From Allokutzneria sp. A3M-2-11 16 (GTDB lineage Bacteria > Actinomycetota > Actinomycetes > Mycobacteriales > Pseudonocardiaceae): a stretch of DNA of 64,000 bases. The notes beneath the pieces are model-generated. The model was not told the origin of the DNA. It did not search any database and saw nothing but the letters and a program-made list of their open reading frames with translations. Position numbers and translations under genes: made by a program. The stretch spans positions 1 to 64,000 of the forward strand of contig NZ_JANAVO010000010.1 in NCBI RefSeq assembly GCF_024213555.1, in the 5' to 3' direction. Shown in pieces: positions 1-50,897 of this stretch; position 1 is the stretch's first letter; the number at the start of each line of letters is the position of its first letter.

Positions 1-76
1 GCGAGGGCCGGGGTTTCATCCCGTGCCCCCGAGAGGCCCAAGGGCACGCGCAAGGGGCCCCCAGGTCAAGCCGACC
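1..76 (-). repeat. Element C copy 1, 115-bp core (cut by window edge)
   Basis: The first 76 bases are the reverse complement of the 115-bp core found whole at 35393-35507 and 50669-50783. Over the 76 visible bases it differs from them at one position. It ends at 59-76 in one arm of the terminal inverted repeat (GGTCGGCTTGACCTGGGG when read on the minus strand). The other two copies each lie about 115 bp upstream of a DUF222-HNH gene, so a third such gene on the minus strand just left of the window is inferred. Confidence 0.9.
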
Positions 77-181
77 CACCGCTGGAAGCCCAGCGCCCCA
101 CGCTGGAAGTCCGGCCAACTCCGCTGGAAGCTCAGCCCACGCAAGCAAGAAGCCCAGCCACGCAAGCAGGAAACCCAACCA
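77..181 (-). repeat. Element C copy 1, degenerate tandem array
   Basis: About five units of 20-23 bp, read on the minus strand as CTGGGCTTCCAGC followed by a short variable tail (TTGCGTGG, GGAGTTGG, GTGGGG and similar). The same units and tails occur next to the 115-bp core at 50544-50668. The array stops just short of the SDR stop codon at 191. Confidence 0.85.
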
Positions 182-34494: not shown

Positions 34495-34587
34495 AGCCGT
34501 GGACGGCGTGCGGTTCCCGCCGTCGCTGTCCGTACATGAGCGGTGACCTGGCAAAACGCGTGGACTCGGCAGCTTAGACTCCCGCGC

Positions 34588-35349
34588 ATGACTACTGGGG
34601 GAGTGTGGATCGGCATCGCGGCGGGGGTCCTCGCGGCCGGACTGATCGCCGGAGGGGCGATCTGGCTGTTCGACGAGGACCTGCCGCTCGGCACCAAGGA
34701 GGGCGCGGAGGCAACGGCCTTCGGCCCCGACCGCTTCGGCAAACTCAAGATCGGCATGACCAAGGACGAGGCCATCGCCACCGGCGCCCTCGGCCCGTCC
34801 CCGGTGGCCGTGGTCACCGGCTGCGAGGACTACTCGTTCCTCGGTGGCCCGTTGCCCGAGCCCGCGCGAATGGCACTGGAAGCCGCCACGGAGAAGCAGT
34901 ACGAAGCCGCGAAGAAGGAGAACGACGAGATCAGGGCCAAGCTCGACGCGCACCGCGGCCAGTCCGCGCAGTCCGCGCAGGACTACGCCACCCGCGCCGA
35001 ACTGCTCGCGAAGTCGGCCGAGGCGCTGAGGAAAATGTCCATCGCCTCGGCCGAGTCGTCCGGGCGGTCCTCATTCCGGATTCGACGCGCTAATGAGCAT
35101 GGTGGAGTGTCGTTTGGGCAGGGGAAGCTGCGGTTGATCTCGGCGCCGCCTTTTGCGAAGACTGCGGAGGGGATTGGGCGGGAGTCCTCTGTTGAGGATT
35201 TGAAGAAGGCTTATGAGGGGCGGGGGATGGTTGAGGATCGGGGGCGGTATGAGGTGCCTGTGGAATCGGACTGGGTTCTGGCATTTGATGTGTCGGGTGG
35301 GAAGGTGGCGAACTTCTTGTTGTTGAGTAAGGGGATTCGGTGTAGGTAG
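34588..35349 (+). CDS. Membrane-anchored hypothetical protein
   Basis: 253 residues from the ATG at 34588; TAGACT ends 7 nt upstream and no Shine-Dalgarno is seen. One N-terminal membrane segment (VWIGIAAGVLAAGLIAGGAI) is followed by a periplasm-facing domain with FGKLKIGMTKDEAIATGALG, a charged helix (about 95-150) and a C-terminal DWVLAFDVSGGKVANFLLLS. The KIGMT-type repeat resembles actinobacterial envelope proteins of unknown function. From about 35095 the coding strand turns G+T rich and C-poor, unlike the first part. Its stop abuts the element C array. Confidence 0.7.
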   Translation: MTTGGVWIGIAAGVLAAGLIAGGAIWLFDEDLPLGTKEGAEATAFGPDRFGKLKIGMTKDEAIATGALGPSPVAVVTGCEDYSFLGGPLPEPARMALEAATEKQYEAAKKENDEIRAKLDAHRGQSAQSAQDYATRAELLAKSAEALRKMSIASAESSGRSSFRIRRANEHGGVSFGQGKLRLISAPPFAKTAEGIGRESSVEDLKKAYEGRGMVEDRGRYEVPVESDWVLAFDVSGGKVANFLLLSKGIRCR

Positions 35350-35392
35350 GGCTTCCTGCTTGGCTTCCAGCTTGCGTCGGTACCAGCGGTGG
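35350..35392 (+). repeat. Element C copy 2, short tandem array
   Basis: Two or three degenerate units (CTTCCTGC, GGCTTCCAGCTTGCG) of the array seen at 50544-50668 and 77-181. It begins immediately after the stop of the preceding gene. Confidence 0.7.
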
Positions 35393-35507
35393 GGTCGGCT
35401 TGACCTGGGGGCCCCTTGCGCGTGCCCTTGGGCCTCTCAGGGGCACGGGATGAAACCCCGGCCCTCGCGATAAGCGTATGGCACGCGCACCCCAGGTAAA
35501 GCCGACC
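35393..35507 (+). repeat. Element C copy 2, 115-bp core
   Basis: Terminal inverted repeat GGTCGGCTTGACCTGGGG at 35393-35410 against CCCCAGGTAAAGCCGACC at 35490-35507 (17 of 18 pair). A second stem, GCGCGTGCC with GGCACGCGC, lies inside it. Same length as the core at 50669-50783, with one base different. It lies 116 bp upstream of a DUF222-HNH gene. Confidence 0.93.
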
Positions 35508-35534
35508 CCGATTTCCAGCCCGCCCTCGCCTTTT

Positions 35535-35623
35535 CGCTGGGGTTGCGTTTCGGGCTTTTCGGGTGCCTGGGAATTCATCCTTTAGGGCCATGATCGTCTA
35601 TTATTGTGCGATAGAATGGGGAC
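35535..35623 (+). promoter_or_regulatory. Conserved promoter of DUF222-HNH copy 1
   Basis: About 85 bp nearly identical to the region before the second DUF222 gene: GGGTTGCGTTTCGGGCTTTT, then a GCCATGATCG box. TAGAAT at 35612-35617 ends 6 nt before the ATG, the spacing of a leaderless mRNA. No standard -35. Confidence 0.7.
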
Positions 35624-36742
35624 ATGTTCCCTGTAGATCCTGACCATAAACTGATGGTCTACTTCGCTGCGATGGGGAAAGCGTCGGCGGACTTCGCGGT
35701 CGTGTTGATGGAGTATGTCGCTCGGCTGGAGTTGTGTGATCGTGAGTTGGCCGAGGAAATCCTTATGCGCTTGTTGGCGGTCTCGAAGACGAAGGCCGCC
35801 CGGCTGTTGCAGCGCGCGGAGGATTTGACTGGTCGGCCTGTGGTGTTGCGGGCGCTGGCCGAAGGCCGCTTCGACGAGGGCAAAGCGTTGATGATCGTTG
35901 ACCTGCTCTCCACCCTCACCGCCGTGCACGCAGCGATCGCCGAGCAGGACTTCCTCGCCTTCGCTGAAACGCACAACTACACCGCGACTCGCAGGCATGC
36001 GGTGCGGTTCATCACCAAGCTGGACCCGAAGGCTGCTGAGCGTCGGCATAAGGAGAAGCGCAAGGCGAGGTTGGTGGAGAAGATCCCCCAAGACGACGGC
36101 ATGTGTCTGCTGCGGATGTTCTTCCCGGCGTTGCAAGCCTCTCTGATCTATGACCGGATCGACCGCATCGCCAGGGCTCTACCGAAGGATCACCGGACGT
36201 TGGATCAGAAGCGGGCCGATGTGACGATGGATGTGTTGATGGGTAAGGAAACCGGCGCACCCCAAGGCCAGGTCACCGTCTACCTCACGATGCCGATGGG
36301 TTCCTTCCTCGGTCTCAGCAATGAGCCCGCCATGCTCCACGGATACGGACCCCTGCCCGCGAAGATCGCCCGGGATGTGGCCGCGAACGGGATCTGGAAG
36401 CGCATCCTGACCGACCCGGTCACCGGGATCGCCGAGGACGTCACCACCTACCGGCCCTCAGCCAAGCAGCGGGAGTTGATCCACGCCCGCTACCCGACGT
36501 GCACGGCGATCGGCTGCAACCGACCGGCGCACCGTTGCGATCTGGATCACTGCTGTTCGTTCGACGGGACAAACACCACGGTCGATAACTTGCGGCCGAA
36601 GTGCCGCAGGCATCACCGGATGAAGCATGAATCCAACTGGAGCTGCGAGAACCTCCCCGATGGTCGGCACGTGTGGACGACACCGAACGGGAAGACTTCG
36701 GAGACGGAAGCGGAACCGATCGCGGAACCGGCGCCGTTCTGA
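35624..36742 (+). CDS. DUF222/HNH endonuclease, 13E12 repeat family (copy 1)
   Basis: 372 residues. The N-terminal DUF222 helical domain covers about residues 1-250. The C-terminal HNH motif reads CDLDHC, then TTVDNLRPKC and RRHHRMKHE, with CTAIGC upstream completing the Zn-binding cysteines. This is the family of the M. tuberculosis REP13E12 repeats. It is paralogous to the gene at 50898: same length, N-termini divergent and the C-terminal about 130 residues almost identical. No RuvC domain is present, so it is not IscB-like. The gene and its upstream element form a repeated unit. Confidence 0.9.
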   Translation: MFPVDPDHKLMVYFAAMGKASADFAVVLMEYVARLELCDRELAEEILMRLLAVSKTKAARLLQRAEDLTGRPVVLRALAEGRFDEGKALMIVDLLSTLTAVHAAIAEQDFLAFAETHNYTATRRHAVRFITKLDPKAAERRHKEKRKARLVEKIPQDDGMCLLRMFFPALQASLIYDRIDRIARALPKDHRTLDQKRADVTMDVLMGKETGAPQGQVTVYLTMPMGSFLGLSNEPAMLHGYGPLPAKIARDVAANGIWKRILTDPVTGIAEDVTTYRPSAKQRELIHARYPTCTAIGCNRPAHRCDLDHCCSFDGTNTTVDNLRPKCRRHHRMKHESNWSCENLPDGRHVWTTPNGKTSETEAEPIAEPAPF

Positions 36743-50435: not shown

Positions 50436-50543
50436 GGCGCCATCGTGGCGAAGATCCGGCGATCGCGGGGGGAAAGCGGGCAGGGACACGCGAAGAGGGC
50501 TCAAGATCGCCCTTTGTGGCGGGGGGTTCCGGCGGGGGTACGG

Positions 50544-50668
50544 CTGAGCTTCCAGCTTGCGTGGCTGGGCTTCCAGCGGGGGTACGGCTGAGCTTCCAGC
50601 GTGGGCGCTGGGCTTCCTGCTTGCGTGGGCTGGGCTTCCAGCGGAGTTGGCTGGGCTTCCAGCGTGGG
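50544..50668 (+). repeat. Element C copy 3, six-unit tandem array
   Basis: Units at 50544, 50565, 50588, 50608, 50630 and 50651, each starting CTGGGCTTCCAGC (or CTGAGC, CTTCCTGC variants) with tails of 5-10 nt. Tails TTGCGTGG, GGAGTTGG and GTGGGG recur in copy 1. Too short for CRISPR spacers. Confidence 0.88.
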
Positions 50669-50783
50669 GGTCGGCTTGACCTGGGGGCCCCTTGCGCGTG
50701 CCCTTGGGCCTCTCAGGGGCACGGGATGAAACCCCGGCCCTCGCGACAAGCGTATGGCACGCGCACCCCAGGTAAAGCCGACC
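50669..50783 (+). repeat. Element C copy 3, 115-bp core
   Basis: Same ends, inner stem and length as 35393-35507, differing by a single base (C for T in the GCGAYAAGCG segment). Encodes no supported protein. It lies 114 bp upstream of the second DUF222-HNH gene. Confidence 0.93.
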
Positions 50784-50811
50784 CGCTTTCATGTGCGGCT
50801 TGCTGTTTCGT

Positions 50812-50897
50812 GGGGGTTGCGTTTCGGGCTTTTCGGGCGCCTGGCAATTCACCCTGTAGAGCCATGATCGACTATTTGTCTGCGATAAAATGGAGAC
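50812..50897 (+). promoter_or_regulatory. Conserved promoter of DUF222-HNH copy 2
   Basis: Nearly identical to 35535-35623, ending in TAAAAT at 50886-50891, 6 nt before the ATG. Both copies keep the GCCATGATCG box and the spacing, supporting a leaderless transcript. Confidence 0.7.

Follow-up and report, generated by a model that had tools for sequence, protein, structure and literature searches.

The described systems closest to the unit analyzed here each share a part of its make-up. REP13E12, a repeat of M. tuberculosis, contains the attachment site of phage phiRv1; IscB (OMEGA) nucleases have a split RuvC domain and work with omega RNA, which is the HEARO family in Rfam; REP/RAYT systems are dispersed extragenic palindromes tied to one protein family, a Y1 transposase; and free-standing HNH homing endonucleases are selfish HNH nucleases whose cassettes are replaced by recombination.

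For REP13E12, PMC10589994 lists REP13E12/HNH/DUF222 among repeats, that is, repeated DUF222-HNH genes like those of the Allokutzneria units, and a 2026 preprint (PMC13061034) reports that gene conversion in M. tuberculosis is especially frequent at REP13E12 loci, which rank with the top sites (87 events), and states that the repeats "lack defined biological function". Prophage insertions in a rep13e12 gene are described in PMC12803068, and PMC10123090 deals with DUF2220 rather than DUF222. The open-access literature searched yielded no function for DUF222 or REP13E12 and no description of an element with the anatomy, or of a scar, such as those reported below; the scar to the left of the core is a new observation.

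The locus studied here belongs to a multi-copy unit composed of a mini-hairpin array, a long palindromic core and a DUF222-HNH gene, the stop codon of which is the right edge. As a dispersed, multi-copy repeat that encodes a DUF222 domain (PF02720) and an HNH motif, the unit falls within the DUF222 repeat family together with REP13E12; the core, array, defined right edge and strand-specific scar are described here for the Allokutzneria units, with REP13E12 compared through published descriptions. Like IscB/OMEGA, the unit has a structured non-coding element at its left end that is followed by an HNH nuclease, but it differs in having no RuvC domain, no Rfam match and no transposase, and in core arms that are long palindromes. 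Like REP/RAYT, it consists of dispersed palindromes tied to one protein family; however, the protein is an HNH nuclease rather than a Y1 transposase, and most cores own a gene (44/55 in genome G002, below). It resembles the homing endonucleases as a putative selfish HNH nuclease with recombinational cassette replacement, but inserts at many unrelated sites and carries a conserved core with it. Our best reading, which we favor tentatively, is that of a transposase-free selfish DNA cassette whose HNH nuclease would nick the core; we infer both the cleavage and the movement. The candidate recognition element, exact edges, empty sites and scar make the function of DUF222-HNH proteins open to direct biochemical tests, and directional scars beside a mobile element would show the working sites of a nuclease from sequence alone.

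Units, cores and proteins

The window, that is, the whole 64-kb stretch of DNA analyzed, lies at the start of contig 1 in its source genome, an 8.81 Mb draft (G000). A preliminary description had placed two units in it, and both are present, each with a palindromic core followed by a 372-aa ORF (Table 1). The left-arm pattern of the core matched the window three times with 0 mismatches (at 35399+, 50675+ and 43-70 on the minus strand) and 0 times in 100 shuffles, the third match belonging to a further copy whose core is interrupted by the window start. As RNA, the core of copy 1 folds at -83.4 kcal/mol (z -7.8; equaled by 0/200 shuffles), with a similar value for the opposite strand, and Rfam gave 0 matches in the window at the gathering cut-off. 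To the left of the core lie GCTGGGCTTCCAGC mini-hairpins spaced ~21 bp, the number of which differs between copies: Tandem Repeats Finder reports ~6 units of 21 bp in copy 2 and no array in copy 1, where a pattern scan finds two units, so that the tandem array ascribed to both copies holds for copy 2 and shrinks to two units in copy 1. Similarly, what had been called a conserved promoter is reduced to an AT-rich stretch before the ATG, since scanning copy 1 (35300-35700) for the sigma-70 consensus yielded no promoter and conservation is poor over the 60 columns that follow the core.

Table 1. Features of the three unit copies in the window (positions refer to the 64-kb stretch).
Feature	Position	Strand	Basis or remark
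Third core	1..77	-	Cut by the window/contig start; any gene lies beyond the window; G002 has a core at the same site
Mini-hairpin array, third copy	78..181	-	
Host DNA with C->T scar, copy 1	35040..35390	+	GC skew, C content; 3' part of host ORF 34543-35349 plus the stretch to the core
Short mini-hairpin array (TTCCAGC-type units), copy 1	35350..35390	+	Pattern scan; left of the core
Palindromic core, copy 1	35391..35509	+	Left-arm pattern, RNA fold
Spacer with AT-rich putative promoter before the gene, copy 1	35510..35623	+	No sigma-70 consensus
DUF222-HNH gene, clade A, 372 aa	35624..36742	+	Unit ends at the stop codon
Mini-hairpin array, copy 2	50523..50666	+	Within the stretch missing from G002
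Palindromic core, copy 2	50667..50784	+	
Spacer with AT-rich putative promoter, copy 2	50785..50897	+	
DUF222-HNH gene, clade B, 372 aa	50898..52016	+	Unit ends at the stop codon

Instead of two copies, G000 holds dozens, with 58 right-half core matches (0 for a reversed-pattern control) and 70 DUF222 matches, fragments counted. Among 41 genomes, a DNA similarity search found the core only in the three Allokutzneria genomes, namely G000, G001 and G002, the last of which is one contig of 8.57 Mb. For the latter, 49 DUF222 genes or pieces (50 matches, two of them merged) and 55 core right halves were compared: for 44/49 DUF222 matches, a same-strand core lies no more than 500 bp upstream (the distance runs from the right half of the core to the beginning of the match), and 44/55 cores had a DUF222 match downstream on the same strand. 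Therefore, most cores and most genes of this complete genome are found together rather than apart, and core and gene are kept as a block, as had been proposed. The cores and DUF222 matches of G002 crowd at 0.42-3.9 Mb, in one chromosome half; between 5.1 and 8.1 Mb, a single core match is listed, at 7.37 Mb.

The units are of two kinds. Clades A and B and their close kin, which share at least ~60% identity with the copy-1 protein, carry a single core upstream of the gene. Clade C, ~23% identical to A and with open frames of 386-501 aa (12 genes), has its gene between two inverted cores in 11/21 loci (L121-L141; two second cores are partial, and three loci are cut by contig ends), the second cores going down to 84% identity. 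Terminal inverted repeats were looked for as in conventional insertion sequences: the candidates are these paired clade C cores, and none was found at the right end of 35 A/B loci.

Cores of clades A and B are 0.96-0.99 identical (six A and six B units), compared to 0.56-0.92 for the genes of the same units in 60-column bins. That is, a near-identical core accompanies different nucleases, which argues that the core sequence is constrained. The nearest neighbor of 108/113 cores lies in its own genome, and we considered concerted evolution of the cores by conversion tracts; however, identity over the 60 columns after the core is 0.75 within clade A (six units) and 0.66 between A and B. The spacer adjoining the core is thus not homogenized, no conversion tracts starting at the core are seen, and direct constraint on the core fits better. 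The core as the nuclease's putative site of action would fit both the occurrence of nearly one core across diverged clades and that of other palindromes in other genera. In the ~400 bp upstream of position 1409 of L147 (G000 C38:324 kb), a DUF222 gene that lacks the usual core is preceded by another kind of repeat and by DNA that is poor in C.

At the protein level, the two window proteins score 54.5 and 62.8 bits against DUF222 (curated cut-off 24.4), and a clade C protein 132.4 bits. The HNH motif occurs in 70/72 A/B and 24/26 C full-length proteins of the three genomes, and the Pfam HNH profile scores the clade C protein only, not the window protein tested. DUF222 and HNH are the only domains matched, and the profile matches of unit proteins include neither RuvC nor a transposase domain (Y1 transposase included), in agreement with the preliminary description. 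The HNH stretch is weakly nearest to IscB, below significance (profile A5, E 0.46 in PDB), and the IscB score, available for the clade C protein only, is 18 bits against a cut-off of 175. A Foldseek search with an AlphaFold2 model (pLDDT 83) gave a best PDB match of E 0.3 and none that was significant, the window proteins matched nothing in PADLOC or PHROGs, and searches of plasmids and phages returned no match and five partial matches (<40% identity), respectively.

Insertion sites and turnover of the nuclease

The right edge of the units is sharp. In 35/35 A/B loci (30 of the 70 G000 matches plus five more), conserved sequence ends at the stop codon (mostly EPAPF*), mean pairwise identity dropping from 0.68 over the 60 nt that precede the stop to 0.28 over the 60 nt that follow it. 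The units are insertions, present or absent at orthologous sites: copy 2 is missing at the orthologous site of G002, where 17 bp lie between the flanks, and the clade C element of G000 C1:177k is missing from G002 as well, with 12 bp between the flanks. No target-site duplication was recognizable across these empty G002 sites, given their divergence from the filled ones. The comparison of empty and filled sites proposed at the outset thus finds both kinds among relatives. At two other sites (site 1 and C1:191k), what G002 retains is the left half of the core together with the final portion of the gene, which indicates internal deletions; by eye, the breakpoints of these derivatives (G002:C1:718.9k for site 1 and 861.4k for the C1:191k site) show GCCGG-like microhomology. 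In G001, the site of copy 2 (C33:18.8-19.8k, L254) is occupied by a different sequence of ~0.9 kb, which appears to consist of a pair of similar small genes.

Site 1 is filled in both G000 and G001. Here, the flanks of the two genomes are 86.5% and 86.2% identical and the host gene 88%, compared to 71.8% (nucleotide) and 66% (amino acid) for the DUF222 gene, and for each of the two proteins a paralogue with 96-97% identity exists within the same genome. When eight shared sites were compared, the closest own-genome paralogue (82-98% aa) was nearer than the site-mate (24-72%) in 16/16 comparisons; cores are present in both genomes at five of these sites, two are cut by contig ends (in G000), and at one no core was found in G002. 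That is, the nuclease at shared sites is usually genome-specific. For the single pair that is core-less in both genomes (L147/L303), the site-mate (71%) is closer than the own paralogues (54-59%). At the site with 24% identity, where G000 has a clade A and G002 a clade C gene, the two flanks of G002 are found next to two different G000 elements, revealing that ectopic recombination also occurs; it is mixed in at the shared site G000 C3:38.8k / G002 923.6k, and in a further pair (L128/L249, 22%) the two genes occupy one place in opposite orientation. Finally, dN/dS values were 0.07 for clade A (11 genes, median dS 0.48), 0.09 for clade B (8 genes) and 0.29 for clade C (12 genes); the nuclease gene is under strong purifying selection.

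Strand bias beside the cores

Host DNA to the left of the core is C-poor and T-rich on the core-sense strand over ~350 bp. In G000, T/(T+C) is 0.48 at 50-100 bp from the core and 0.31 beyond 500 bp, and A/(A+G) also falls. Considering the 93 cores with both halves and at least 1000 bp of left flank, the T bias was higher near the core (100-300 bp) than far from it (500-1000 bp) at 80 of them (35/41 in G000, 16/16 in G001 and 29/36 in G002; p 2e-13, although this and the other p-values for the scar are overstated because the copies are related), and it was found on both chromosome strands of G002 (14/20 and 15/16). An earlier, looser core set showed the bias in 47/54 and 36/40 flanks (54 of 74 and 40 of 44 flanks used). 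Neither 103 ordinary gene ends nor 58 flanks of 29 other hairpins, both taken as controls, showed any bias. In the left flank of copy 1 (35000-35399), GC skew is +0.22 and then +0.49.

The bias extends into the unit. At four-fold sites of A/B genes, T/(T+C) falls from 0.31 to ~0.1 away from the core, with a rise to 0.20 at codons 120-160, compared to 0.08-0.13 in control genes (n=211); in 26 clade C genes, A/(A+G) goes up toward the second, inverted core, from 0.06 to 0.35 and then 0.24, a rise to which domain-specific codon use could contribute. Hence, the biased strand appears to be set by the orientation of the core, on both of its sides. The right flanks of 35 A/B units change at most slightly, in the first 100-200 bp. 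A double-strand break with two-sided 5' resection was dropped as an explanation because the top strand is also the biased one inside the gene and the right flanks are barely altered. Six A/B genes without a detected core also show the skew, and two solo cores without a gene show no scar (loose core pattern, spurious hits included).

Comparisons among the genomes bear on when the bias arises. Two insertions absent from G002 lie in unbiased DNA without C>T excess, whereas at C3:11.7k, where the element is also absent from G002, 27 C>T stand against 7 T>C in the first 500 bp, and 26 against 21 farther out; the scar thus seems to accumulate after insertion. Where the element is in both genomes, the ratio is 22:5 at C3:38.8k, and an excess is missing at C14:30.8k (10:11 within 500 bp). 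At C10:66.9k, aligned bases begin only beyond 500 bp, with 14 C>T and 24 T>C, and the C33:319k comparison, aligned in the wrong orientation, was set aside. At site 1, the C share of aligned bases 40-240 bp from the core is 0.11 in G000, 0.17 in G001 (intact) and 0.20 in G002 (internally deleted), and eight sites have T in common between G000 and G001 and C in G002; these eight differences can be read as T>C changes on the G002 side, provided that G000 is closer to G002 than to G001, which the flank identities suggest. By eye, a transporter-like host gene (L004:840-1560, G000 C10:66 kb) turns from C-rich to G/T-rich codons over the last ~350 bp before the element.

The main rival to nicking as the origin of the scar is an R-loop formed by transcription into the hairpin, which we consider rather unlikely. 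Host transcripts would enter the core, RNA polymerase would stall at the hairpin and the non-template (top) strand, kept single-stranded by the R-loop behind the polymerase, would deaminate, so that the nuclease would not be the cause of the scar. Flanks whose host gene points at the core indeed show a larger scar (60 flanks, +0.153) than those whose host gene runs away from it (20 flanks, +0.067; p 0.007 for the difference), which favors a transcription-linked part; the biased strand is the non-template one for rightward transcription on both core sides; and the bias occurs in genome G071 of another genus, where no clear palindrome was seen. (An earlier orientation test with 80 flanks toward and 25 away was based on the loose core pattern, spurious hits included.) However, flanks with the host gene running away are still biased (16/20 positive, p 0.007), three tandem units with this orientation average +0.167, and other strong hairpins, ordinary gene ends and the two solo cores show nothing.

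Possible mechanism and units of other genera

Under our preferred reading of a cassette that nicks its own core, the DUF222-HNH protein would recognize the hairpin formed by the core, either as extruded DNA or as RNA, and nick the bottom strand there, a gap would open that leaves the top strand single-stranded for some hundreds of bases, and cytosine would deaminate on the strand thus exposed. Repair from another copy would then replace the resident cassette or rearrange the genome, and recombinational repair might occasionally seed a new site. Cassettes would compete, and only those with a working nuclease would survive; this would account for the low dN/dS seen in old copies.

Alternatively, the units could belong to an ordinary gene family that uses the hairpin for regulation and has multiplied through duplication and homologous recombination; the skew would then reflect a preference for T-rich insertion sites. 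Strong purifying selection and the ectopic recombination between copies would suit such a family, but we find it improbable given the empty sites and sharp edges, the two G002-absent insertions in unbiased DNA as opposed to the 27:7 ratio at C3:11.7k, and the one host gene that, by eye, turns G/T-rich only over its last part. The interpretation advanced in the preliminary description, a nuclease paired with a structured element that it recognizes or that serves as its RNA partner, is supported in part; the further findings of a third core, of units with inverted cores, of an edge at the stop codon, of nuclease turnover where sites are shared and of a scar on one strand go beyond it.

DUF222 occurs in 39/60 genomes of the family, and 16/60 have at least 20 matches among the matches listed, of which up to 31 per genome were scored. 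Nearly all of 57 comparison loci from three genera (G010, G048 and G071) are repeat blocks in unique flanks. The palindrome GTGGCGGCGCGG...CCGCGCCGCCAC is found in 18/18 loci of G010, and CTCAACCTC...GAGGTTGAG in 8/20 loci of G048, of which nine have a second kind and three neither. G010 and G048 follow the same plan, with other palindromes in the same place and other DUF222 lineages. The left-flank T bias is present in 18/18, 18/19 and 16/20 loci of the three genera, including G071, where skew is present and no long palindrome was seen; the A->G part is clear in Allokutzneria only, being small in G010 and absent in G071 and G048.

In eight G048 cores, one stem exists in two sequence versions, with 97.9% of cells paired. 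Fifteen cells are changed on both sides and covariation is 0.155 compared to 0.050 in shuffles (both reached in 0/500), while the number of pairs changed on both sides, six, was equaled in 57/500 shuffles and reflects mostly one switch common to three loci. Although such stem-preserving changes, the structured element upstream of an HNH nuclease and the weak nearness of the HNH stretch to IscB would suit an RNA-guided nickase, that is, a core transcribed as an OMEGA-like scaffold RNA with a guide from the flank and an HNH domain nicking the RNA-paired strand, we regard this as very unlikely given that RuvC and Rfam matches are absent, that the IscB scores are below significance and HNH-only, that the bias of ~350 bp is far beyond a guide-length R-loop, and that the Allokutzneria core arms hardly vary (2/30 pairs informative for covariation).

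Extending the nicking-cassette reading to these genera, it is possible, although we propose this with greater reserve, that the units represent a new mobile-element class that is widespread in Pseudonocardiaceae. Such a cassette, anchored by a hairpin and free of a transposase, would have a DUF222-HNH nickase acting on a co-evolving palindrome, would move and overwrite rivals through single-strand-gap repair, and would leave a directional deamination scar in host DNA as a record of past activity, REP13E12 being its mycobacterial relative.

Two further features of these loci were observed. In several G010 loci (among L362-L379), the repeat block stops close to a run of NTMH codons, and the unique flank apparently supplies the C-terminal tail and the stop codon. 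In G048 (L406, L407 and L411-L417), the second palindrome kind lies upstream of the gene, with inverted-orientation matches upstream, and repeated copies of it are found downstream in several loci.
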